DNA of 64,000 nt. Origin: an uncultured Sutterella sp. GTDB taxonomy: Bacteria; Pseudomonadota; Gammaproteobacteria; Burkholderiales; Burkholderiaceae_F. Below, one piece after another: positions 13,119-64,000 of this stretch. The position numbers and the translations under genes were made by a program. The first letter of the stretch is position 1. Each line of letters opens with the position of its first letter. The stretch lies in NCBI GenBank assembly GCA_949287305.1, contig CASEFX010000026.1, positions 1-64,000 of the forward strand, given 5' to 3'. The notes beneath the pieces were generated by a model, which ran no database searches, had not been told where the DNA came from, and worked only from the letters and a program-made list of their open reading frames with translations.

Positions 13119-14078
13119 ATGACGCAAGCCAATCACCCCGCCTTCGTGCGCCTTTCGAGTCTCGGCGTCACCACCGTGACGGGCAAGGACGCTCTCGCCT
13201 TCCTCCACGGCCAGTTCACGAACCGCCTGCAGCCGCTCGGGCAACGCGCGCCGCTCGCGGGCTACTGCTCTCCGAAGGGCCGCCTCCTCGCCACGATGCG
13301 CGTCTGGGGCGAAGGGGATGCGATCTCGCTTCTCCTCCCCAAGTCCGCCGAACCCGCGTTTCTGAAGCGCATCCGCATGTACGTGCTGCGCTCCGACGTG
13401 CACTTTGCCGAAGACGCCGAGCGCACGCTACTCGCGGGCTTCGGTGAAGAAGCCGAAGCACTCCTCAAGGACCGTCTTGCCGCCGCCGGCGCGGAACTTC
13501 CCGCCGTGAACGAAGCCGCCGTGGCGCCCGAGATCACGGTCGTGCGCGTGCCCGACACCCCGGCCCTTCCCGGCGTCGCGGACGCGGGCGTTCGCTATCT
13601 CGCGCTCGTAAAGGACGCGGAAGCCTTTGCCCCCGCTGAGGACGACGCCTACTGGTGGGCCACCGAAGCCGCCGCGGGGATCGGTTCGGTCTTCGCGGAA
13701 ACGGCCGACCGTTTCGTTCCGCAGTCGATCAACTACGAACTCACCGACGGGGTCGTCTTCAACAAGGGCTGCTACCCCGGTCAGGAAGTAGTGTCGCGCA
13801 TTCAGCATCTGGGGACGCCTTCGCGCCGCATGGCCCTGGGGCTCGCGCAAACGCCGGTTCTCCCGGAAGCCGGTGCGGGCCTGTACGCCCTGAAGGGAGG
13901 AGCGCGGACGCCGTCGGGCGACGTCGTCTTCGCCGTACGGGGCGAAAACGCCGCGGCGGTCCTCGTTTCGCTTCCGACGGGCGACTTCGGGCACGAATTG
14001 TCGCTCGACGCGGAAGGCGGGATCCCCGTCAAGCTCGTGCCGCTTCCCTACGAAATCCGCAACGTGCTCGACAGCTGA
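13119..14078 (+). CDS. ygfZ: Folate-binding Fe-S cluster maintenance protein YgfZ
   Basis: The 319-residue protein has the diagnostic YgfZ motif KGCYPGQE (about residues 216-223) with its conserved Cys, in a GcvT-like folate-binding fold. Family members use tetrahydrofolate to help assemble or repair certain Fe-S enzymes, including MiaB. An AAAGGATCTTTCCC ribosome site precedes the ATG. The gene diverges from mltG-tmk-holB, an arrangement common in Burkholderiales, but here an 820-base gap separates them. A strong terminator follows. Confidence 0.9.
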   Translation: MTQANHPAFVRLSSLGVTTVTGKDALAFLHGQFTNRLQPLGQRAPLAGYCSPKGRLLATMRVWGEGDAISLLLPKSAEPAFLKRIRMYVLRSDVHFAEDAERTLLAGFGEEAEALLKDRLAAAGAELPAVNEAAVAPEITVVRVPDTPALPGVADAGVRYLALVKDAEAFAPAEDDAYWWATEAAAGIGSVFAETADRFVPQSINYELTDGVVFNKGCYPGQEVVSRIQHLGTPSRRMALGLAQTPVLPEAGAGLYALKGGARTPSGDVVFAVRGENAAAVLVSLPTGDFGHELSLDAEGGIPVKLVPLPYEIRNVLDS

Positions 14079-14105
14079 GGGGGGCATTCTCTGCGCTGCA
14101 ACTTG

Positions 14106-14137
14106 GGGACGTCTTGCGAGAAGGCGTCCCTTTTTTT
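14106..14137 (+). terminator. Rho-independent terminator after ygfZ
   Basis: GGGACGTCTT (14106-14115) pairs with AAGGCGTCCC (14121-14130), with one G-T pair, followed by seven T residues. Confidence 0.85.
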
Positions 14138-14435
14138 CGCCTTATTCCCTGCGGGCTCGAAACTTTTCGCCGTCCGATCCGCTCGGGCGCGTCCTCTTCT
14201 TCCCTTCACTCCAAGATCCGAAACACGGCGTTCCGGAAACCGGAATCAGATTTCATCCGACTTCCTTTTTGACATTCGCATAACTAAAGACCTTCATTCC
14301 TCGGCTACGCCCGATCCAATCGACAACGTCGCACTTTCCGCCCTCATCTCCTACGAAATTCCGAGATTTTCTGATCTCAATCATAAAAAGGCGCCTCTTT
14401 TACACGAAATAAGCATGATTCATTGATATTTGTCA

Positions 14436-51811: not shown

Positions 51812-52582
51812 ATGCCCAACCGTCCTCTCCTTCTCATCGTCGAAGACGACGCGGAAATCGCCGAGCTTCTCGAAGAAAACCTTCGGGCCCACGGCTTTGA
51901 CACCGTCGGCGCCGCAAACGGCGTGGAACTCTTCTCGCAGCTTGAAACGAGAAAACCCGACCTGATTCTCCTCGACATCATGCTCCCGGGCGAGGACGGC
52001 CTTACGCTCTGCCGTCGGCTTCGCGCGGGCGACGGCGGTTTGCCCGAGACGCCCATCATCTTTTTGTCGGCCCTGGGCGACCTCACCGACCGCGTCGTGG
52101 GACTCGAACTCGGCGCGGACGACTATCTTCCGAAACCCTTCGAAATGCGGGAGCTTCTCGCCCGCATCCGCGCGGTGCTTCGCCGCTCCGAAATGCGAAG
52201 CCGCGCCGAGAAAGCTGACCCAACGGGTGCGGCTGATTATGCCAATACTCTTCCCTCCCGAACGATCCTTCGCTTCGGCCCCTGGCGCGTCGACATGGGC
52301 GCAAGGCACCTGATCGACGAGTCCGACGTGACCGTGTCGCTCTCCGCCCTGGAATTCAAACTTCTCGAAATGTTCCTCCGGAACCCGCAGCGCGTACTCA
52401 CGCGCGAGAGCATTCTTCTGAAACTCGAAAACCGCTCGGACGCCTACGACCGCAACATCGACGTGCAGATGAGCCGGCTTCGCGCCAAGCTTCGCGACAG
52501 CGGGCGCAGCCCCAAACTCATCCGCACGATGCGCGGAGACGGCTACATGCTTGCCGTCCCCGTCGAAAGGGAGGTCCCGTGA
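51812..52582 (+). CDS. OmpR-family response regulator
   Basis: The 256-residue regulator has a receiver domain with the acceptor Asp55 (LILLDIMLPGEDG), acidic residues 11-13 and the Lys of DDYLPKPFEM, then a winged-helix domain (LSALEFKLLEMFLRNPQRVL and YDRNIDVQMSRLRAKLRDSG, ending RTMRGDGYMLAVP). It precedes its kinase, whose GTG start overlaps the regulator's TGA by four bases. Divergent orientation to the exported cupin operon suggests a regulatory link. Confidence 0.9.
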   Translation: MPNRPLLLIVEDDAEIAELLEENLRAHGFDTVGAANGVELFSQLETRKPDLILLDIMLPGEDGLTLCRRLRAGDGGLPETPIIFLSALGDLTDRVVGLELGADDYLPKPFEMRELLARIRAVLRRSEMRSRAEKADPTGAADYANTLPSRTILRFGPWRVDMGARHLIDESDVTVSLSALEFKLLEMFLRNPQRVLTRESILLKLENRSDAYDRNIDVQMSRLRAKLRDSGRSPKLIRTMRGDGYMLAVPVEREVP

Positions 52583-53967
52583 ACCGTCTTCGAAAGCGCC
52601 TCGCTTCGCTTTTACCCGACTCGATTTTCGGACAGATCCTCTTCGTGCTCGTCGCAGGACTCGCGCTCCTCCAGATCGCGAACTTTCTCGTCGTCTGCGG
52701 CGTACAGAAGCTCTACGTAGATCAGATGGAGCGGGCCCGAATCGAGCACGTCGTCTCCTATCGGGCGCTCTTTGAGTCGATTCCCTCGGACCTGCGCGCG
52801 GAAACCCTCAATGCCGCGCACGGCAATCCCGCACTAGCCCCGTCGCTTGAGCGCGTGACGATCGTGCGCGAGCACCCCGACTGGGCTGCGCCCGGCCCCA
52901 TTCTCGCGGATTCTCTCGGGGCTCTCAAGGAAGCGTTGTCCGCCGGCGGCGAAACGCCCGAAGTGCTCGTGCGGGGCGACGAGACGGGCTCGATTCTCCC
53001 GCTTCACGCCCCGACCATGGAAGTAGCCGTCGCGCTCTCGGACGGCACGTGGCTCACGATCCTCTTTCCCGTCGAAGCGGACGACCGCATGATGGTCTGG
53101 TCGCAGCGACTTTTCGTCTTTTTGGAAGCGCTCGTCCTTCTCGTGCCGCTCGTCTATCTGCTGCGGCGCGTCACAAAGCCGATCGATCGGCTCTGCAGTG
53201 CGGCGGAAGCCTTCGGGGCCGCCCCTGAAGAGAGTCCCGCGCTTCCCGAAGAAGGTCCCCGAGAACTGCGAAGCGCCGCGAACGCCTTCAACCGCATGCG
53301 TGAACAAATCCGCGGACACTTGGACGAGCGAAACCGCATGATCGCGGCCCTCGCGCACGATCTGCGAACGCCGCTCACGAAGCTGCAGCTACGGCTCGCG
53401 CGCGTCGAGCCCGAAACGCTTCGTGATCAGCTCGCCGACACCGCCAAGGGCATGAACGAAATCCTGACGCAGGGCCTCGAATTCGCAAGAAGCCTGCGCA
53501 CCGAAGAGCCGATGACGAAGATCGACCTTCCCTCTTTCCTTCAGAGTCTCGCGGACGACTACGCGGACCTCGGGCACGCCGTGACGTTTGATAGCGATCC
53601 CGCACTGGAAGCTGAACCCCAAAAGGGCGTTTTGCCGGCAAGGCCCCTTTGTCTCAAACGCTGCATGGAAAACCTTCTCACGAACGCCTGCGCCTACGGA
53701 GGTTCGGCCGAGATGCGGCTGACCCTCGAGAAGAACGCACTCGTCGTGACGGTGTCGGACCGGGGGCCGGGGATTCCGGAAGCGTTGATGGAGAAGGTGT
53801 TCGAGCCCTACTTCCGGGTGGAGGGATCCCGCAACCGCGCTTCCGGCGGAACGGGCCTGGGACTCCCCATCGCCAAGAACATGGCGCAGCTGAACGGCGG
53901 CACGCTCACGCTCGCGAACCGTCCCGAGGGCGGGCTTACGGCGACGCTTCACCTGCGGCTCCCTTGA
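52579..53967 (+). CDS. EnvZ-type sensor histidine kinase
   Basis: GTG at 52579 gives 462 residues. Membrane segments at about 18-40 and 178-197 flank a periplasmic domain of about 137 residues; a HAMP domain and the H-box MIAALAHDLRTPLTKLQLRL (His260) follow, with an N-box in CMENLLTNACAYGG, G1 SDRGPGIPEAL and G2 GGTGLGLPIAKNMA. The HDLRTPLT H-box places it in the EnvZ/RstB group. Its signal is unknown. It converges with a small acidic secreted protein gene 21 bases downstream. Confidence 0.88.
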   Translation: MNRLRKRLASLLPDSIFGQILFVLVAGLALLQIANFLVVCGVQKLYVDQMERARIEHVVSYRALFESIPSDLRAETLNAAHGNPALAPSLERVTIVREHPDWAAPGPILADSLGALKEALSAGGETPEVLVRGDETGSILPLHAPTMEVAVALSDGTWLTILFPVEADDRMMVWSQRLFVFLEALVLLVPLVYLLRRVTKPIDRLCSAAEAFGAAPEESPALPEEGPRELRSAANAFNRMREQIRGHLDERNRMIAALAHDLRTPLTKLQLRLARVEPETLRDQLADTAKGMNEILTQGLEFARSLRTEEPMTKIDLPSFLQSLADDYADLGHAVTFDSDPALEAEPQKGVLPARPLCLKRCMENLLTNACAYGGSAEMRLTLEKNALVVTVSDRGPGIPEALMEKVFEPYFRVEGSRNRASGGTGLGLPIAKNMAQLNGGTLTLANRPEGGLTATLHLRLP

Positions 53968-53988: not shown

Positions 53989-54303
53989 TCACCCCCAGTC
54001 CTCTTCCGGATAGTCTTCGCGGACGTCTTCGATGTCTTCGGCATCGGGCGAGATGAACTCGACCATGCCGTTCTCTTCGTTGTCCTCACCGTCCTCGTTG
54101 TAGTAGCCGTTGAAGCTTTGATCCCGCACGGTTTCACTCTCGGGCGTGAGATAGTCGCTCATCACGCCCGCACGCTCGCGGCCGCCCTCGTAGTCGTCAT
54201 AGTCTTCGGACCCGTACGCAGAAGCGTTGACAGCGACGGCCAATAACACAACGGCAATAGAGGTTGTGAAAGTGCTGATGAAGAGACAATTCTTATTGGG
54301 CAT
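53989..54303 (-). CDS. Small acidic secreted protein, unrecognised
   Basis: Taking the ATG at 54303 gives 104 residues with a signal peptide (MPNKNCLFISTFTTSIAVVL, cleavage near VNASA). The mature ~72 residues are extremely rich in Asp, Glu and Tyr (YGSEDYDDYEGG, then EDGEDNEENGMVEF and DAEDIEDVREDYPEEDWG), with few hydrophobic residues, so they are probably disordered and may bind cations. I recognise no family. GC content is lower than in the neighbouring genes. No strong ribosome site is visible; in-frame starts further upstream are possible. Confidence 0.5.
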   Translation of the reverse strand: MPNKNCLFISTFTTSIAVVLLAVAVNASAYGSEDYDDYEGGRERAGVMSDYLTPESETVRDQSFNGYYNEDGEDNEENGMVEFISPDAEDIEDVREDYPEEDWG

Positions 54304-54634
54304 AACCGTGAGTTTTTTCGAGTTTATTCGTGAGATGGGAATCATCAAACATCCGTCGAGTTTTCTCGGCAGAATCTCGTTCACCAAAAAGAAAACTTAA
54401 TCATGGCGGAACGCCATTGTTACATGCCTATGGTGCCGGCTTGTCTGACAACGTCTTTTCAAGGCAACCTGAAGCGACAAGGATTTGAGAGCAACTTCTT
54501 CGAAAGAGTAGCAGGAGTGTTCTTCCAAAAACTGAAATTCTTTTCGATTTTTTTTCTCTCCAACGCAAAGTTCAAGCCTTTGAACTTGCGGCCTCGTTAA
54601 CCAAATGAGGCTCCAGTTCCTTCCTTCAACTTAC

Positions 54635-55128: not shown

Positions 55129-57810
55129 ATGCAACTATCTCGCCGAAGCTTTCTCGAAGCGACGGCCGTGGCGGGCCTTGCCGCCACGGTGAACCGCCTC
55201 GTGCCCGAAGGTCTCGTTTCCTCGGCCCGCGCCGCCGAGGCGGCCAAAGCCGCGCCCGCCGCAGCCGCCGCGGGTGAAACGAAAATCGTCAAGACCTGCT
55301 GCCGCGCCTGCATTCACAACTGCGGCGTGCTCGCCCACGTGCGCAACGGCCGCGTGGTGAAGCTCGAAGGCAACCCCGAATACCCGATGAGCAAGGGCAC
55401 GCTCTGCCCGAAGGGACTCGCAGGCATTTCCGCCCTCTATCATCCGAACCGCAACAAGTATCCCCTCCTGCGCGTGGGCAAGCGCGGCGAAAACAAGTGG
55501 CGCCGCATCAGCTGGCAGGAAGCGATCGACCGTATCGCCCGCAAGATGGAGGAAGTCCGCCATCAGTACGGCGCCGAATCCGTCCTCATCACGACGGGCG
55601 GCGGCGGCAATCCGGCCTTCCGCGGGATTCCGCGCGTTGCGAACGCCTTCGGAACCCCGAACTTCTACGAACCGGGCTGCGCGCAGTGCTATCTTCCGCG
55701 CACGCTCGCCTTCGACATGATGTACGGCGGCCCGGACACGTCGATCGCCGACGAAAAGAGCCGCGAAATCTACAACCCGAACACGGTCATGAAGTCGATC
55801 GTGCTCTGGGGTACGGACCCCTCCTACAGCAACCCCGCGGGCGGCGGCCAGGCGCTCGTGACCCTGCGCGCAAAGGGCGTGAAGTCGGTCGTGATCGACC
55901 CGCGCTTCATTCCGGAAGCGGCCCGCGCCGACGTGTGGCTGCCGATCCGTCCGGGCACTGACGTGGCGCTCATGCTCGGTTGGATGCGCTACATCATTGC
56001 GAACAAACTCTGGGACAACGAGTTCGTCATGCGCTGGACGAACCTTCCCTACCTCGTTGACGTCGAAACGAAGATGCTCGTGCACGCCAACGACCTCGAC
56101 GCGAAGGGCGACGCCAAGACCTACGTCGTGTGGGATGCGAAGACGAAGTCTCCGAAACCCATCGCCTATCCCTGGGACGACAAGCTCGAGCCGGTGCTCG
56201 ACGGCGCGTTCGAATGGCAGGGCAAGAAGTACGTGACGGGCTTCCGCGCGCTCAAGGAACGGGTCGAACCCTGGACCCTCGAAGCGACGGCGAAAGAATG
56301 CTGGCTCGATCCGAAGAAGATCGAAGAGGCGATCCACATCTACTGCGACGGTCCCTCGGGCATCTCCCTCGGCGTCGCGACCGACCAGACGCCGAACTCC
56401 GTACAGGCCGCCATGGGCGCGGTGATCCTCAACGCCCTCCTCGGGAACGTCGAACGTCCGGGTTCGCTCATGCAGCGCAATCCCTCGAGCAACGTCGTTC
56501 CGGCCGGCTCGCTCGCCACCCGCTGCTCCTACCTCCTTCCGGAAGGTCAGCTCACGAAGCGTCTCGGCAGCAATGAACACAAGGGCCTCATCCAGTGGGA
56601 CGCCGCGCAGCCGAGCGCCGTGCTCGACGCGATGCTCACGGGCAAGCCCTATCCGATCAAGGTCTGGCTCGAACGTTCCGGCAACAAGTTCTGCGTAAAC
56701 GGCAACGCCGGCTCCTGGGTGAAGGCGATGGAAAACGTGGACCTCATCGTCCACATGTACATGTATCCGACGTCCTTCTCGATGTACGCGGACATTCTCC
56801 TGCCCGCGACCGAGTGGCTCGAAACGAACATGCTCATCGAGTCCCTCAACATGGTGTTCGCCCGCCAGGCGGTCGCCCACGTGTGGGAAACCGAAGACGA
56901 AACGCTCTTCTGGTCGAAGCTCATCAAGAAATGCGCCTCGCTCGGCAACGAAAACGCCCAGCGCGCCTGCGACCCCGAGTTCATGAAGGACGACCTCGCC
57001 TACTGGGATTCGATGGAAGAGCTCCTTGACGGCCGTCTGAAGCGCATCAACATGACCTGGAAGCAGCTTCTTGCGAACAATCCGGTCACGTACATGCCCT
57101 ACGACAAGTGGAACACCTACTACGTCTACAAGGAAAAGGATCCGAAGACGGGGCTTCCGAAGGGCTTCCGCACGCCTTCGAAGAAGCTCGAACTCTACGG
57201 CGACGTGTGGATCACGCTCAGCCGCACCGGGAAGCCCTATGCGCTGCAGCCGCTTCCGCCCGCCTCGAAGGATTACGATCCTCTGCCGTACTACTTGGAA
57301 CCCCACGAAAATCCGACGAACGAGATCGGCCGCGAATTCCCGCTCATCCTCACGAACGGCCGCATTCCGGTCTATCACCACGGCACGCTTCGCAACGTGC
57401 CGTACCTGCGCGAAATCTATCCGGTGCCCGAACTCTGGGTGAATCCGGTCGACGCGAAGAAGTACGGCCTCAAGACGGGCGACTGGGCCTGGATCGAGTC
57501 GCTTCGCGGCAAGACCCGCGGCAAGGTCCTCGTCACCGAAGGCGTGAGCCCGGGCGTTCTCTACATGGAACGCTTCTGGTTCCCGGAAACGCTGACGACG
57601 CCGACGCGCGGCTGGATGGAAGCCAACGTCAACGTGTTGACGAAGAACGACCCGCCCTTCAACGACGTGGTCGGCACCTACACGCTGCGCGGCATCCAGG
57701 TCCGCATCTCGAAGGCGCCGGGCGCCCCCGAAGGGATCTGGCAGAAGCCCGAGGACTTCAAGCCGTGGCTCCCGCAGCCCACGGACACGACGCCGAATCC
57801 GAAGCTCTGA
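55129..57810 (+). CDS. Tat-exported molybdopterin oxidoreductase, catalytic subunit (DMSO reductase family)
   Basis: The start at 55129 has an AAGGAGA ribosome site and a twin-arginine signal (MQLSRRSFLEATAVAG). The 893-residue subunit binds [4Fe-4S] through Cys58, Cys61, Cys65 and Cys93 (CRACIHNC then TLCPKG), followed by bis-MGD domains. The candidate molybdenum-ligand region is EPGCAQCYLPR (Cys184 or Cys187), pointing to the PsrA/PhsA/arsenate-reductase-like branch with Cys ligation rather than the Ser of DMSO reductase. The next two genes encode Fe-S and membrane subunits, so it forms an ABC-type respiratory reductase facing the periplasm. Substrate (sulfur compound, arsenate, S- or N-oxide) is not determinable. 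Confidence 0.88.
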   Translation: MQLSRRSFLEATAVAGLAATVNRLVPEGLVSSARAAEAAKAAPAAAAAGETKIVKTCCRACIHNCGVLAHVRNGRVVKLEGNPEYPMSKGTLCPKGLAGISALYHPNRNKYPLLRVGKRGENKWRRISWQEAIDRIARKMEEVRHQYGAESVLITTGGGGNPAFRGIPRVANAFGTPNFYEPGCAQCYLPRTLAFDMMYGGPDTSIADEKSREIYNPNTVMKSIVLWGTDPSYSNPAGGGQALVTLRAKGVKSVVIDPRFIPEAARADVWLPIRPGTDVALMLGWMRYIIANKLWDNEFVMRWTNLPYLVDVETKMLVHANDLDAKGDAKTYVVWDAKTKSPKPIAYPWDDKLEPVLDGAFEWQGKKYVTGFRALKERVEPWTLEATAKECWLDPKKIEEAIHIYCDGPSGISLGVATDQTPNSVQAAMGAVILNALLGNVERPGSLMQRNPSSNVVPAGSLATRCSYLLPEGQLTKRLGSNEHKGLIQWDAAQPSAVLDAMLTGKPYPIKVWLERSGNKFCVNGNAGSWVKAMENVDLIVHMYMYPTSFSMYADILLPATEWLETNMLIESLNMVFARQAVAHVWETEDETLFWSKLIKKCASLGNENAQRACDPEFMKDDLAYWDSMEELLDGRLKRINMTWKQLLANNPVTYMPYDKWNTYYVYKEKDPKTGLPKGFRTPSKKLELYGDVWITLSRTGKPYALQPLPPASKDYDPLPYYLEPHENPTNEIGREFPLILTNGRIPVYHHGTLRNVPYLREIYPVPELWVNPVDAKKYGLKTGDWAWIESLRGKTRGKVLVTEGVSPGVLYMERFWFPETLTTPTRGWMEANVNVLTKNDPPFNDVVGTYTLRGIQVRISKAPGAPEGIWQKPEDFKPWLPQPTDTTPNPKL

Positions 57811-57906: not shown

Positions 57907-58503
57907 ATGACGCAAAAAACTTTGGTTATCGACCTCGACCGCTGCACGGGGTGCATGGCCTGTGAAGTCGCCTGCAAGCAGGAAAACGGCGTGCCGCTCG
58001 GGGTGTACCTCAACAAGGTCCACACGATCGGCCCGACGGGTGTCTTCCCCGACATCAAGCAGTACTTCCTTCCGCACGTCTGCCAGAACTGCAAGGACGC
58101 GCCCTGCGTGAAGGTGTGCCCGACGAAGGCCACCTACCGCACGGAAGACGGCCAGGTGCTCGTCGACAAGGAAAAGTGCATCGGCTGCCGCGCCTGCATG
58201 ACGGCCTGCCCCTACGGCGCGCGCTCCTTCAATCCGGAAACGAACGTCGTCGAAAAGTGCACGCTTTGCAACCACCTGCAGGCGGCGGGCGAACAGCCCG
58301 CCTGCGTGAAGGCCTGCTGTGCGCACGCCCGCTTCTTCGGCGACATCGACGATCCGGAAAGCGACGTCTCGAAGGCCATCAAGGCGGCCGGTCCCGAAAA
58401 CGTGCATGCGATGCGCGACGTCGGCAACAAGCCTACGGTCCGCTACATCCTGCACAAGAAGTACGGCGACTGGACGGAAGACCAGCCGAAGATGCTCCCG
58501 TAA
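57907..58503 (+). CDS. Four-cluster ferredoxin subunit of the molybdopterin reductase (DmsB/PsrB-like)
   Basis: The 198-residue electron-transfer subunit carries four cysteine sets: CTGCMACEVAC, CQNCKDAPCVKVCP, CIGCRACMTACPYGAR and CTLCNHL with a later PACVKACC. This is the DmsB/PsrB/PhsB layout of four [4Fe-4S] clusters. It lacks a signal peptide, so it is expected to be exported with the Tat-signal-bearing catalytic subunit. GGAATT precedes the ATG. It passes electrons from the membrane anchor to the molybdenum subunit. Confidence 0.9.
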   Translation: MTQKTLVIDLDRCTGCMACEVACKQENGVPLGVYLNKVHTIGPTGVFPDIKQYFLPHVCQNCKDAPCVKVCPTKATYRTEDGQVLVDKEKCIGCRACMTACPYGARSFNPETNVVEKCTLCNHLQAAGEQPACVKACCAHARFFGDIDDPESDVSKAIKAAGPENVHAMRDVGNKPTVRYILHKKYGDWTEDQPKMLP

Positions 58504-58534: not shown

Positions 58535-59392
58535 ATGGCGACCTTTCTGCCGAGCCTCTATGCGTTCTTCGCCGCGGCGGCGGCCGGGTGCCTTCTTGCG
58601 ACGGCCTTCGGTGAAGTCCGCCGCGTCCGAACGGACCGTCTTGCGGCGGTGACGCTTGCGGGCCTCGTCGCGACGCTCGCGGCCGCGGCCGCGGTCGTGG
58701 GGCAGTTCGGTCGTCCCTCCCTCCTCTTTTCCGTCTTCTCAAACCCCGGGACGGCGATCTTTCGCGAGCTCGCCTCGCTCCTTCTCGCGCTCCTGGCGGG
58801 CGCCGCCTATCTGACGGCGCTCCTCACCGGCGCGACCCGCAGAACGGGGCGAAAGCTCTCGCTTTTCGCGGCCGCCTCGGGGCTTCTTCTTGCGCTGGCG
58901 GTGGGTTCCGCCGCGGTGCAGCCCTGGCGTCCCGTCTGGAACACCTGGACCCTCGTCCTTCCGACGGCGGGTTTTGCGTGGCTCGCGGGCGTGATGTTCG
59001 CCAAAGGCCTCGGCGCCACCGGACACAAAAATGTCGGACCGGCCCTCCGCCTTCTGAAGAAAGCCGAAGAGAAGACGATCGAAACCGTTTCCGAACCGCT
59101 TTGGGAGAGCCCGAAACTGGCCGCCTCGGCGCCCCTCGTCGGGCTTGCCGTCTACTTCGCGATCGCATCGACCGACGCCTCCGCCCGCACGGCGCTCGCT
59201 TCGCTTCTTACGGGTTCGAACGCCCCGCTCTTTTGGGCGGGCGTGATCGTTCCGAGCGTTCTCGCGTCCTTCCTCGCAGCAGTCTTCGCCTCCGACGCGC
59301 TGAAGCGAAATCCCGTTTCCGGCACCGTATTGGCGATCCTCGCCGCCTTCTCCGCGGGCGCGTGGCAACATCTCGTGTTGGGATTGGCCTGA
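58535..59392 (+). CDS. DmsC-like membrane anchor subunit
   Basis: The 285-residue protein starts after an AGAGGAG ribosome site and has about eight membrane helices, in the DmsC pattern. The first helix region is FFAAAAAGCLLATAFGEVRR, helix 3 begins after SNPGTAIFRELASLLL, and the hydrophobic pairs end near VLASFLAAVFASDALKRNP. DmsC-type subunits anchor the AB pair to the inner membrane and oxidise menaquinol. Together with the two preceding genes it completes a self-sufficient quinol-linked reductase. A terminator follows. Confidence 0.82.
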   Translation: MATFLPSLYAFFAAAAAGCLLATAFGEVRRVRTDRLAAVTLAGLVATLAAAAAVVGQFGRPSLLFSVFSNPGTAIFRELASLLLALLAGAAYLTALLTGATRRTGRKLSLFAAASGLLLALAVGSAAVQPWRPVWNTWTLVLPTAGFAWLAGVMFAKGLGATGHKNVGPALRLLKKAEEKTIETVSEPLWESPKLAASAPLVGLAVYFAIASTDASARTALASLLTGSNAPLFWAGVIVPSVLASFLAAVFASDALKRNPVSGTVLAILAAFSAGAWQHLVLGLA

Positions 59393-59572: not shown

Positions 59573-60271
59573 ATGCAGAAGACCCCCGAACTCGCGCGTC
59601 TCTTGGAAGGCCGCGGCAATCTCTACCGCTTCCTCTCGCGCTTCTACCTCGTGGAAGTCGACGAAGCCTTCTGGACGGCGCTTCGCGGCATGACCTTCCC
59701 CGAAACGGCGGACGAACCCCGCATGGCCGAAGGCTGGCAGCGGCTTGCGAAGGCGGTCGCCTCCGACCTCGGTCCCGACCCCATCGAAACGCTCGCCGTC
59801 GACTACGCGCGCATCTTCCTCTCCGCGGGCGTGAGCGAGGGCGCCGCGTACCCGATCGAATCGGTCTACACGAGCCCCGAACACCTCGTCATGCAGGACG
59901 CCTGGGAGGCGGTCTGCCGCACCTACCGCGAAGCGGGCTTTGAAAAGGACGCGAAGGTGGACGTGCACGAAGACCAGCTCGGGCTTGAGCTTCTCTTCCT
60001 CGCGCACCTGAACGACCGTCTTCTCGCGTCGATCTCGGCCGAAGGGGACGATCCCGAACGCGACGCCGCGTTCTTCGCCACCCTTCGCGCGTCGAAGACC
60101 TTCCTTGCGGAGCATCCCCTTCGCTGGGTCGCGGACTTCTGCCGCGACGTGAGAAAGTGCCCGGCGACCGACTTCTATCCGGCCGTGTCGCTTCTCACGG
60201 AAGGCTTCCTCGCGATGGACGCCGCGCTTCTCGACGACCTCCTCGCCGAAGCCGAAGGAAAGGCCGCCTGA
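59573..60271 (+). CDS. TorD/DmsD-family redox enzyme maturation chaperone
   Basis: The 232-residue all-helical protein starts NLYRFLSRFYLVEVDEAFWT near its N-terminus and carries the TorD motifs AYPIESVYTSPEHLVMQDAW and VHEDQLGLELLFLAHLND. Such chaperones bind the Tat signal of a specific molybdoenzyme and delay export until the cofactor is inserted. Its client is almost certainly the catalytic subunit encoded upstream. Ribosome site AAAAAGGAATCC. A terminator separates it from the ABC genes. Confidence 0.87.
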   Translation: MQKTPELARLLEGRGNLYRFLSRFYLVEVDEAFWTALRGMTFPETADEPRMAEGWQRLAKAVASDLGPDPIETLAVDYARIFLSAGVSEGAAYPIESVYTSPEHLVMQDAWEAVCRTYREAGFEKDAKVDVHEDQLGLELLFLAHLNDRLLASISAEGDDPERDAAFFATLRASKTFLAEHPLRWVADFCRDVRKCPATDFYPAVSLLTEGFLAMDAALLDDLLAEAEGKAA

Positions 60272-60356: not shown

Positions 60357-61058
60357 TTGACGAACACGAAACAACGGACGGACGCCCCTGCGGACGGTCC
60401 GTCCCAAACCCCAAAACCGTCGGACGCATCGATTGACGTCGGCCGCCGCAAGGTCCTTCAGGGGACGGCCGCGGTGACGGGCGTCGCCGCCCTTTTTGCG
60501 CTCGGCGCCGCCACGTCGACGGACGACGCGGAAGACCTCGAGTTTTCGAAACCCGCGGTTCGTCCGCCGGGAAGCGTGGCCGAACCCGAGTTTCTCGCGC
60601 GGTGCCTTCGCTGCGACCGCTGCCGAAGCGTCTGTCACACTTCGGTGATCGGCATGACCGACTGGTCGGACGGACTCGTTCGGATGAGAACGCCCGTCCT
60701 CGACTTCCGGCTCGGGCACTGCGACTTCTGCGGGCTTTGCGCCGAAGTGTGCCCGACGGGCGCGATTCTTCCCTTCTCCAAGGAAACGACCAAGGTGGGG
60801 CTTGCGGTCCTGACAGAGCGCTGCATTGCGCTGCGCACGGCCGCCTGCCGCGTCTGCGAGGAGAAGTGTCCCTACGATGCCGTGACGCTCGACGAACACA
60901 AGGTTCCCGTGATCGATCCCGAAATCTGCAACGGCTGCGGACTCTGTGAAAACGTCTGTCCTGCGAACGTCTTTCAGTCCTATCGGACGGGCGTTGAGCG
61001 CGGGATCGTGGTGCGGCCCTTCGCCGCACTCGAGGCTACTGAAGGAGGTGCGGCATGA
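60357..61058 (+). CDS. NapG-like Tat-exported polyferredoxin
   Basis: The start is a TTG at 60357, supported by a very strong GGAGGGAGG ribosome site. The 233-residue protein has a twin-arginine signal (VGRRKVLQGTAAVTG, Arg30-Arg31) and four cysteine sets: CLRCDRCRSVC (83-93), CDFCGLCAEVCP (122-132), CRVCEEKCP (164-171) and CNGCGLCENVCP (191-201). This is the NapG/MauM layout: a periplasmic ferredoxin that receives electrons from a NapH-type membrane protein. Its TGA overlaps the ATG of the NapH-GltD fusion gene by four bases, so the two are made together. It may deliver electrons to the molybdoenzyme or other periplasmic reductases. Confidence 0.88.
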   Translation: MTNTKQRTDAPADGPSQTPKPSDASIDVGRRKVLQGTAAVTGVAALFALGAATSTDDAEDLEFSKPAVRPPGSVAEPEFLARCLRCDRCRSVCHTSVIGMTDWSDGLVRMRTPVLDFRLGHCDFCGLCAEVCPTGAILPFSKETTKVGLAVLTERCIALRTAACRVCEEKCPYDAVTLDEHKVPVIDPEICNGCGLCENVCPANVFQSYRTGVERGIVVRPFAALEATEGGAA

Positions 61059-63409
61059 AAAAGTTCTTCACGGGCCCGCGCCTGCGCGCCCTGACGGCGC
61101 TCGTCTTCTTCCTTCTCTTCCTTCTCGGGCTTGCGGTGCACACGGGCTGGGGGACGGCCTCGTCCTTCGGGATCGCCGAAATCGCCGCGATCTGTCCCTT
61201 GGGCGGTCTCGAAGCGATGCTCGCTTCGAAGACCTTCCTCCCGCGCGCCCTCGTGGGCTTCGCGGTGTTCCTTGTCGTCGCGGTGCTTCTCGGACGCTTC
61301 TTCTGCGGGTGGCTCTGCCCCGTGCCCTGGGTCGACAAGGCGCTCTCGAAACTGCGCGCGCCGGGACGGCGTTTCGTGCGCGGCGCGAAGGCGTCCCCGG
61401 CGGCCTCGTGCACGACGCCTGACGCGGCTTCGATCCCGCCTTCCGAGAGTACCAAGACTGCACCGCAGTCCTGCCCGAGCGCCGCATCCTGCACTTCCGC
61501 CTCCTGCAAAGACTGCGCCTTCGCCAACCGCGTGAAGGAAAAGGCCGAGAGCGCGACGGAAAAGACGCCCTACTGGATTTTGGGCGGCGCGCTCGCTTCG
61601 AGCGCCGTCTTCGGTTTTCCGGTCTTCTGTCTCATCTGTCCGGTGGGCCTCACCTTTGCGCTCACGGTGGCGCTCTGGCGTCTCTTTGAATTCAACGAAA
61701 CGAACTGGGCGATCCTCTGGTTCGCGGGCTTTCTGGTGCTGGAACTCCTCGTTCTTCGCCGCTGGTGCTCGCGCTTTTGCCCGCTCGGCGCCCTCTGGAC
61801 GCTCGCCTCGAGGCTCAACCGCTTCTTCCGTCCGAAGGCGAACGAAGCGCTCTGCACCCGCATGACCCACGGCGTCGCCTGCACGATCTGCCGCGACGTC
61901 TGTCCCGAGGGGATCGACCCGGCGGCGGTGGCGAACGACCCGATGCTCCTTGCCCGCTGCACGAAGTGCGGCGCCTGTGCGGCCGCCTGCCCGACGGGCG
62001 CGGTGCATTTCCCCTTCCTCGCCGAGGCGGGCAAGAAGACGCTACCGATCGTTCCGGTCGCCAGGGCTTCCGCTTCCGTGAAGGCGAATGCCGAAGTCCC
62101 CGCGTCGTCCGACGAAAGGGCGAACACTGTGCTCACGCCTGAGGAAGAACGCATGGAGGTCGCCCGCTGCATTCACTGCGGCGCCTGCGGCGAACGCTGT
62201 CCCCTCGGAGACCGCATGCCGCGTGCGACGGCGCTTCTCGCCCGCGGCCGTCGAGAAGATGCCGCAAACGTTTTGTTGGCGCCGGGCGGTTTCCCGGAAA
62301 TCACGTCCCGCGTCTGTCCGACGGAGCGCTTCTGCGAGGGCGCCTGCGCGACGGAGCACGACGGCAATCCCGTCGCGGTCGCGATGCTCGAAAAGACCCT
62401 GGCGGACGAAGCCCTTCGCGAGGGCTGGCGCCCCGACGTTCGCCATGCGGCGAAGCGCCGCCGCGTTGCGGTGGTGGGTTCGGGCCCGGCGGGGCTGGCC
62501 TGCGCCGACGTTCTCGTGCACCTGGGCGTGGAAGTCCACGTGATCGACCGCGCCCCCGTTGCGGGCGGTTTGCTCTCGCTCGGGATTCCCTCCTTCAAGC
62601 TTCCAAGAGACGTCGTCACCCGCCGCGTGAAGCTTCTGGAAGACGCGGGCGTACGCTTCGCCTTGGGACTCTCCGTCGGGAAGGACCTTTCCTGGCGGGA
62701 TCTCGCGAACGAATTCGACGCCGTCTTCGCGGGTACGGGCGCAGCCCAGCCCGTGACGCTCGACGTGCCGGGCGCTCTCCGAGAAGACGAAAAGGACGAC
62801 GCCTCCCTTCTCACGGCGGACGTCTTCCTTCGCGCGGTCGCGAAACGCGAGGCGAATCTCCCCGACGCGGGCGACATTCCCGACGCCCTTCGCGGGAAGC
62901 GCGTCGCGGTCCTCGGGGGCGGCGACACGGCGCTCGACTGCGCGAGAACGGCTCTTCGCTTGGGTGCCTCTTCGGTGACGCTTGTCGCGCGGCGCGCCAA
63001 AGTGGCGCTTCGGGCCCGTCCTTCGGACCTAGCCCGCGCCGAACGTGAAGGCATGAAGCTTCTTTGCGGGCGCACCGTCCCGGCCGTTCTCCGCAAGACG
63101 GACGGCACTTTGGAAGGTCTTTCGCTCTCCGCCGCGGCTGACGCAGAGACGTCTCCCGAGACGCTTCCCGCGGACGTCGTGATCGTCGCCTACGGCTTCC
63201 GTTCGGTTCCCGACGAAGAGCTCCGCTCGTTCGGCGTTGCCTACGACGACGCGGGACGCATCGTGACCGACGCCGAGGGCCGCACGAACGCCCCCAAACT
63301 CTGGGCGGGCGGCGACGCCGTTCGAGGCGCGGCGCTCGTCAGTTGGGCCCTTGCCGACGGCCGTCGTGCGGGACTCTCGATCGCGGCCGCGATCGGGGTT
63401 CTCCGCTGA
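61055..63409 (+). CDS. Fusion of NapH-type membrane polyferredoxin with a GltD-type NAD(P)H flavoprotein
   Basis: The 784-residue protein joins two complete modules. Residues 1-320 are NapH-like: four or so membrane helices (about 12-28, 64-82, 174-206, 217-235), the paired-Cys motifs CGWLCPV (84-88), CLICPVG (192-195) and CSRFCPLG (238-242), then ferredoxin clusters (276-283; 302-312). Residues about 365-784 are a GltD/NfnB-like oxidoreductase: the [4Fe-4S] set CIHCGACGERCP (372-382) and Cys421, Cys427, Cys431, an FAD-binding VAVVGSGPAGLACADVL (471-487), a second dinucleotide motif VAVLGGGDTALDCA (617-630), and the terminal AGGDAVRGAALVSWALADGR. NapH C-termini are cytoplasmic, so the flavoprotein would reach NAD(P)H. 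An insertion with several Cys (113-160) lies between helices 2 and 3. Confidence 0.9.
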   Translation: MKKFFTGPRLRALTALVFFLLFLLGLAVHTGWGTASSFGIAEIAAICPLGGLEAMLASKTFLPRALVGFAVFLVVAVLLGRFFCGWLCPVPWVDKALSKLRAPGRRFVRGAKASPAASCTTPDAASIPPSESTKTAPQSCPSAASCTSASCKDCAFANRVKEKAESATEKTPYWILGGALASSAVFGFPVFCLICPVGLTFALTVALWRLFEFNETNWAILWFAGFLVLELLVLRRWCSRFCPLGALWTLASRLNRFFRPKANEALCTRMTHGVACTICRDVCPEGIDPAAVANDPMLLARCTKCGACAAACPTGAVHFPFLAEAGKKTLPIVPVARASASVKANAEVPASSDERANTVLTPEEERMEVARCIHCGACGERCPLGDRMPRATALLARGRREDAANVLLAPGGFPEITSRVCPTERFCEGACATEHDGNPVAVAMLEKTLADEALREGWRPDVRHAAKRRRVAVVGSGPAGLACADVLVHLGVEVHVIDRAPVAGGLLSLGIPSFKLPRDVVTRRVKLLEDAGVRFALGLSVGKDLSWRDLANEFDAVFAGTGAAQPVTLDVPGALREDEKDDASLLTADVFLRAVAKREANLPDAGDIPDALRGKRVAVLGGGDTALDCARTALRLGASSVTLVARRAKVALRARPSDLARAEREGMKLLCGRTVPAVLRKTDGTLEGLSLSAAADAETSPETLPADVVIVAYGFRSVPDEELRSFGVAYDDAGRIVTDAEGRTNAPKLWAGGDAVRGAALVSWALADGRRAGLSIAAAIGVLR

Positions 63410-63490: not shown

Positions 63491-64000
63491 TCAGTCTCCG
63501 GGCTCGGCGGTTTGCCGGGTCGAGCGGTTGAGACCGCGCCACCCTTTTCGCGTCACGACGCGAAGCGCATTGCCGGCGTACCCCGTAAACCACTCCGCAA
63601 AGGCCCTCAGACGGGGCGAGCGCTCTTCGTCTTCCGTCCTCGTCACGACGCACATGTGCCAGGGAGCGCGCTCCCAGCCTCGCAGCACCGGAACGACGCG
63701 TCCCTCGTTGATCTCGTCGACGACGTGTCCGAGAAAGAGGTCGACCGCGATGCCGCGGTGGTTGAGCAGAAGCTTTTTGAGCGTCACCTGGTCGCTCGCG
63801 AGAAAGGTGTCCCGCCAGCGAAGCGGCGACGAGGCGACGCCGTTTCGATAGAGAACCGTCGTGTCGCGCGTGTTCACCGAATGATGCAGAAGCCCGAAGT
63901 GACGCGAAAGGTCTTCGGGGCACTCGGGCGTGCCGTACTTCTCGAGATATTCGGGCGTTGCGAGCGGTACGGTCGAGGACGTGTGCAGATGTCGGAACAT
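63491..64000 (-). CDS. LysR-family regulator, C-terminal effector domain (cut by window edge)
   Basis: The reverse strand encodes about 169 C-terminal residues; the start and the HTH domain lie beyond the window. The visible part is a LysR substrate-binding domain: LATPEYLEKYGTPECPEDLS (the canonical 'spaYL..G.P..p.DL' segment), LLLNHRGIAVDLFLGHVVDE, and EGRVVPVLRGWERAPWHMCV near the end. LysR regulators bind a small coinducer. It converges with the NapH-GltD gene. What it controls cannot be seen here. Confidence 0.85.
   Translation of the reverse strand: MFRHLHTSSTVPLATPEYLEKYGTPECPEDLSRHFGLLHHSVNTRDTTVLYRNGVASSPLRWRDTFLASDQVTLKKLLLNHRGIAVDLFLGHVVDEINEGRVVPVLRGWERAPWHMCVVTRTEDEERSPRLRAFAEWFTGYAGNALRVVTRKGWRGLNRSTRQTAEPGD

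Follow-up and report, generated by a model that had tools for sequence, protein, structure and literature searches.

Gene organization of the locus

The window, by which we mean the whole 64,000-nucleotide stretch of contig CASEFX010000026.1 (assembly GCA_949287305.1) from an uncultured Sutterella sp. and which sets the positions used here, carries near its end the genes and features collected in Table 1. The ORF of moA is open from 54949 and its likely start lies at MQLSRRSFL. The memC product has no Pfam match of its own and its homologue in locus L086 matches NrfD (E 5e-10). The napG-like product scores 75 bits against the NapG/MauM family TIGR00397, below the cut-off of 178.85, with its Tat signal and 16 Cys present. 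The last gene of the series, which overlaps the napG-like gene by 4 bases and whose ATG is preceded by a strong Shine-Dalgarno sequence, AAGGAGGTG, encodes a NapH-type membrane polyferredoxin followed by a linker and a GltD-type FAD/NAD(P) module.

Table 1. Positions of the operon genes, of the parts of the fusion and of the adjoining regulator in the window
Feature	Position	Strand	Remarks
moA, exported molybdoenzyme, PsrA/PhsA/acetylene-hydratase-like	55129-57810	+	Tat motif RRSFL, FS0 Cys motif
feSB, four-cluster ferredoxin subunit, ArrB/NrfC/DsrO-like	57907-58503	+	74-99% identical in relatives
memC, multi-TM membrane subunit, NrfD/DmsC-like (quinol-type anchor)	58535-59392	+	
torD, Tat/molybdoenzyme chaperone	59573-60271	+	Nitrate_red_del / TorD family match
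napG-like, Tat ferredoxin	60357-61058	+	NapF/NapG family matches, RRKVLQGTA signal, 16 invariant Cys
Fusion gene	61055-63409	+	single intact ORF, 784 aa
NapH-type half, residues 1-322	61055-62020	+	four TM helices, two CX3CP, two ferredoxin motifs
C47, predicted periplasm-side Cys	61193-61195	+	
C192, predicted periplasm-side Cys	61628-61630	+	
C195, predicted periplasm-side Cys	61637-61639	+	
GltD-type half, residues 356-784	62120-63406	+	seven Fe-S Cys, FAD motif 475, NAD(P) motif 621
LysR-type regulator	63494-64000, past the window to about 64465	-	homologue beside operon in at least 14 fusion loci

In all homologous loci uncut by contig ends the gene order is molybdoenzyme, ferredoxin subunit, membrane subunit, TorD, NapG and fusion. 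Twelve homologous loci carry a seventh gene for a cytoplasmic polyferredoxin somewhat like NapF; this gene is missing in the window strain and in three of its near relatives. Its product measures ~360-380 aa with a conserved C-terminal WEDKLG...PIYR (L030:3684-4754, L034:13169-14302, L038:13587-14702 and L040:12619-13752).

Domain make-up of the fusion

Pfam matches in the fusion are Fer4_5 (63-101), ferredoxin domains (275-317), Fer4_20 (356-457) and Pyr_redox_2 (470-769). Among NCBIfam families, NapH models match in two stretches, the best at ~163-323, and gltD_gamma matches at 360-778, all below the curated cut-offs: 71.4 bits against 213.05 for NapH TIGR02163, 74.6 against 234 for NF007013 and 339.7 against 482.95 for the C-terminal half with GltD TIGR01318. 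This C-terminal half displays the GltD fold together with its Fe-S Cys and its FAD and NAD(P) motifs, since both GxGxxG (475) and GGGDTA (621) are intact, and Foldseek with its AlphaFold model retrieves NfnI-L and GltS beta (E 5e-32, TM-score 0.81 by target). Furthermore, R646 is found in 13 of the 14 aligned fusions and R/K647 in 11 of them, as expected for a 2'-phosphate site, and on these residues the GltD half would prefer NADP. The initial sequence-only reading, which had described one polypeptide joining NapH to a complete GltD with all Cys motifs present and coupled to NapG by a 4-base overlap, is thus borne out by the intact ORF with both dinucleotide motifs, by 22 Cys that are invariant in the 14 full-length fusions aligned and by the NapG-fusion order kept in homologous loci.

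The same genome holds an ordinary nap locus (napA, napG, napH; L045:4348-8769). Given this separate canonical napH, the fusion is an addition rather than a replacement and is not the strain's NapH for nitrate.

Distribution and conservation

Full-length homologues of the fusion with 37-88% identity occur in 16 of the 67 Sutterellaceae genomes searched, in six genera, and in these 16 genomes the same domain order goes with NapG and a periplasmic molybdoenzyme, a co-occurrence that had been put forward as a check. Two Sutterella loci came from a pattern scan of genome contigs with patterns that reach close relatives only. In one genome (G055) the fusion is split by contig ends, and in another (G058) an in-frame TGA lies within the variable insert beside an ambiguous base. 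This TGA is the one point in favour of a sequencing or assembly artefact behind the fusion, an explanation that the sequence-only reading had also raised and that we regard as practically negligible, because fourteen intact full-length homologues in several genera are single ORFs and both halves are under purifying selection. Indeed, between the strain and its nearest relative (G000 and G060) dN/dS ranges from 0.04 to 0.17 outside the variable insert and linker (residues 1-96, 0.04; residues 166-322, 0.11; GltD half, 0.17) and rises to about 0.4 in the cytoplasmic insert and linker. A frameshift is rejected on the same grounds.

Outside the family, no fusion was found among the ~700 sampled order and phylum genomes (300 order, 398 phylum), the best 2-3 candidates per genome being scored; no match spanned both halves and only GltD/AegA-type proteins were among the matches listed. 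The NapH half searched against 249 phylum genomes at 1e-25 returned its own sequence only. A plasmid search gave no record covering 80% of the fusion query, with AegA-type proteins among the matches listed, and the viral contigs searched gave no fusion match. In a tree of GltD halves the fusions group together (support 90/91, long branches), which is in line with a single origin of the fusions. Two long PF12801 proteins, L153 (1332 aa) and L154 (1399 aa), were set aside as NosR-like membrane modules and not NAD(P) fusions; in these two ORFs, which come from other members of the phylum, the NosR-like C-terminal module follows a long multi-TM domain that looks spermidine-synthase-like by eye.

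Cysteine pattern and predicted topology of the NapH half

Both CX3CP motifs and the eight ferredoxin Cys are kept in the fusion, these 12 Cys being common to the 25 canonical NapH reference proteins, most of them from the same bacterial family. The fusions depart from canonical NapH at three other positions. C47 and C192 are Cys in 14/14 fusions, whereas all 25 canonical NapH carry an acid at both positions (D in 24 and E in one at C47, E in 24 and D in one at C192), and at C195 the canonical residue is S in 23 and N in two. Across 67 NapH/NosR-type proteins, the first periplasmic segment holds D/E-P in 58, and neither CPxG nor CxxCP occurs in any of the 67.

AlphaFold gave a usable model of the membrane half once the 25 NapH were added, the earlier one having been of low quality. 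This four-helix model, of moderate confidence (mean pLDDT 73.7), places C47 and C192/C195 at the same face, and together with a strongly basic segment after helix 2 it points to a periplasmic location for all three, hence to only three candidate ligands on the predicted periplasmic side, a number that speaks against a cluster there, while C84, C88, C238 and C242 would lie on the cytoplasmic side. Foldseek of the membrane half gave no solved structure matching at E 0.001. With Cys at the acid positions, two conserved acids are gone from the NapH half and candidate Fe-S ligands have appeared on the far side of the membrane; on the simplest reading of the alignment, the two acids would have been exchanged for Fe-S ligands. 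The conserved NapH acids may serve quinol oxidation. As for the CX3CP motifs, iron counts of NosR argued against clusters at these sites (PMC5928378).

Molybdoenzyme of the operon

The molybdoenzyme (E <= 1e-100) is found in exactly the 16 fusion genomes and in none of the 51 others of the family, and in a 349-genome phylum sample it is present in this genome only. Its Mo-Cys region could be aligned with that of PsrA, and Tat signals are present on both the molybdoenzyme and NapG. The protein scores 297.9 bits against the PhsA thiosulfate reductase family NF012032 (cut-off 694) and stays below the cut-offs of every NCBIfam family matched, so that no reductase family is assigned; with a profile of the family, acetylene hydratase (247 bits) comes out slightly ahead of PsrA (233).

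Five genomes have extra molybdoenzyme operons, in which the NapG-fusion pair was not found. Those of L088 and L090 are also without the membrane subunit, and molybdoenzyme operons without it occur only in fusion-bearing genomes. This suggests that the extra operons are supplied in trans. In L085-L091, which belong to fusion-operon genomes, the molybdoenzyme and ferredoxin subunit are encoded a second time, accompanied by the membrane subunit or TorD in some cases only.

Comparison with known systems

The fusion shares with NapH/NapG the four TM helices, the two CX3CP motifs, the two C-terminal ferredoxin motifs and the adjoining gene for a NapG-like Tat ferredoxin, but it differs by its GltD module, by a partner enzyme that is not NapA and by C47, C192 and C195 in place of acid, acid and Ser/Asn. 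Similarly, it has the fold, Fe-S Cys ligands and FAD and NAD(P) motifs of GltD-type modules (GltS beta, NfnI-L, the N-terminal part of DPD and the C-terminal part of AegA), whereas its partner is a membrane polyferredoxin instead of a soluble protein and the operon contains no GltB. With AegA (NF009408) the fusion scores 308 bits against a cut-off of 1003, over the GltD part only: AegA has a HydN-like soluble ferredoxin domain before GltD, where the fusion has a membrane domain. NosR and RdhC (PceC) likewise have a NapH-like membrane module with CX3CP within a larger polypeptide serving an exported reductase, but what they add to it is an exported domain that binds FMN, and they lack one for NAD(P); no exported FMN-binding Pfam domain was found in the fusion. 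PsrABC and PhsABC resemble the operon in the molybdoenzyme with its aligned Mo-Cys region, the ferredoxin subunit and the NrfD-like membrane subunit, to which the fusion operon adds the TorD, NapG and fusion genes.

MsrQ-like or NqrB/RnfD-like carriers are described in PMC8238504 as membrane proteins to which an NAD domain is fused; these also combine a membrane carrier and a cytosolic NAD(P) module in one chain, but their membrane parts are unrelated (heme/flavin) and their NAD domain is of the FNR type, not GltD. A review names GltS, DPD, NfnI and AegA as GltD-type proteins (PMC8097209, available part), and the available parts of this review and of PMC8238504 make no mention of a NapH-GltD fusion. 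We did not find such a fusion in the open-access literature. All parts belong to known families, and their combination and the Cys substitution appear to be undescribed.

Proposed electron route and alternatives

The usual electron source of periplasmic molybdoenzymes is the quinone pool. Given that the NapH-NADPH fusion always occurs with an exported molybdoenzyme, the fusion in these gut Sutterella-type bacteria probably delivers electrons from intracellular NADPH to a reaction beyond the membrane, skipping the customary passage through quinone. We lean slightly towards the view that the six genes form a respiratory unit whose fusion protein acts as a membrane-spanning NADPH dehydrogenase and feeds the periplasmic molybdoenzyme as an alternative to quinol. 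The narrower proposal of a quinone-independent conduit from NADPH to the periplasm, in which acids replaced by Fe-S ligands complete a cluster chain across the membrane that, with NADPH and the membrane potential as driving force, powers a low-potential molybdoenzyme in gut Sutterellaceae, is offered tentatively, as somewhat short of an even chance. The sequence-only reading had predicted such a conduit, bypassing or bifurcating with the quinone pool. In outline the conduit stands as the best-supported reading; the bypass is favoured by the acid-to-Cys exchange and is put more cautiously, and for bifurcation we found no positive evidence, there being one flavin site and no second NAD-binding subunit in the operon.

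The proposed chain, whose cofactor loading, topology, C47/C192/C195 cluster, direction, NADP preference and acceptor are all predicted, would begin with the reduction of the FAD of the GltD half by cytoplasmic NADPH. Electrons would then pass through the two GltD [4Fe-4S] clusters and on to the NapH half, where two ferredoxin clusters would lead them to a putative cytoplasm-side site at the CX3CP motifs, and from there across the membrane to the candidate periplasm-side site of C47, C192 and C195. The exported NapG-like ferredoxin with its 16 Cys would take them up and hand them over to the iron-sulfur subunit and finally to the PsrA/acetylene-hydratase-like molybdoenzyme. The NrfD/DmsC-like subunit would offer a parallel entry through which quinol could supply the enzyme, which makes the fusion only one possible donor; quinone independence and the substrate of the fusion pathway are likewise predictions. 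With electrons flowing outward, the membrane potential would add to the reducing strength of NADPH as seen from the periplasm: by calculation, NADPH (-320 mV) acts there like about -470 mV at 150 mV, which would fit a low-potential acceptor of the PsrA/PhsA kind. Stoffels and co-workers reportedly found in 2012 that membrane energy assists thiosulfate reduction.

Quinol could itself be the donor or a co-donor if the NapH half oxidises menaquinol and the GltD half acts as a second entry, a regulatory or a bifurcating branch, both feeding NapG. Published work treats NapH as part of a quinol dehydrogenase (PMC5928378, PMC8238504), the fusion keeps both CX3CP and both ferredoxin motifs, and the twelve loci with the added polyferredoxin would also suit this scheme; we nevertheless hold it to be unlikely, since the conserved periplasm-side acids of NapH are Cys in every fusion aligned, and the single flavin site has no NfnS-like partner in the operon to bifurcate with. 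The polyferredoxin gene also bears on the idea that joining the halves would serve assembly or stoichiometry alone, with the GltD half working for a cytoplasmic partner such as this downstream protein. That gene is gone from the window strain and three near relatives, which retain the fusion, and the Cys motifs are conserved along the entire chain, all of which makes the idea highly improbable.

Reverse flow, in which the molybdoenzyme would oxidise a periplasmic substrate while electrons would run inward through NapG and the fusion and end up in NADPH, draws on the redox reversibility, in principle, of every step, on the lack of an assigned reductase family for the molybdoenzyme and on the fact that some GltD-type modules (NfnI) work towards NADP+. 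It would nonetheless need a low-potential periplasmic donor against the membrane potential, and TorD, the subunit composition and the nearest characterised relatives (PsrA/PhsA) are of the reductase type; we consider it distinctly unlikely.

If the outward route from NADPH is true, a conserved protein that connects NADPH by iron-sulfur clusters to the far side of the membrane would open a new route of respiration. The fusion bears on the mechanism of transmembrane electron transfer in NapH-type proteins, for which the acid-to-Cys replacement provides a direct mutational handle, and the operon points to a further electron acceptor in gut bacteria.

Genes flanking the operon

Just upstream of the operon, genes for an OmpR-type response regulator and a sensor kinase occupy 51812-53967 of the window (+ strand). 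No homologue of these two-component genes was found near the operon in relatives and they are therefore not counted in it. Between them and the operon, 53989-54387 (- strand) encodes a small and highly acidic protein that matches no Pfam family and probably carries a signal peptide; L028 has a similar ORF at 14000-14359, upstream of its operon. Just past the window and downstream of the LysR gene, L027:1781-2785 encodes a di-haem cytochrome c peroxidase of the MauG type, and a MauG-type peroxidase is also found beside the operon in L028.
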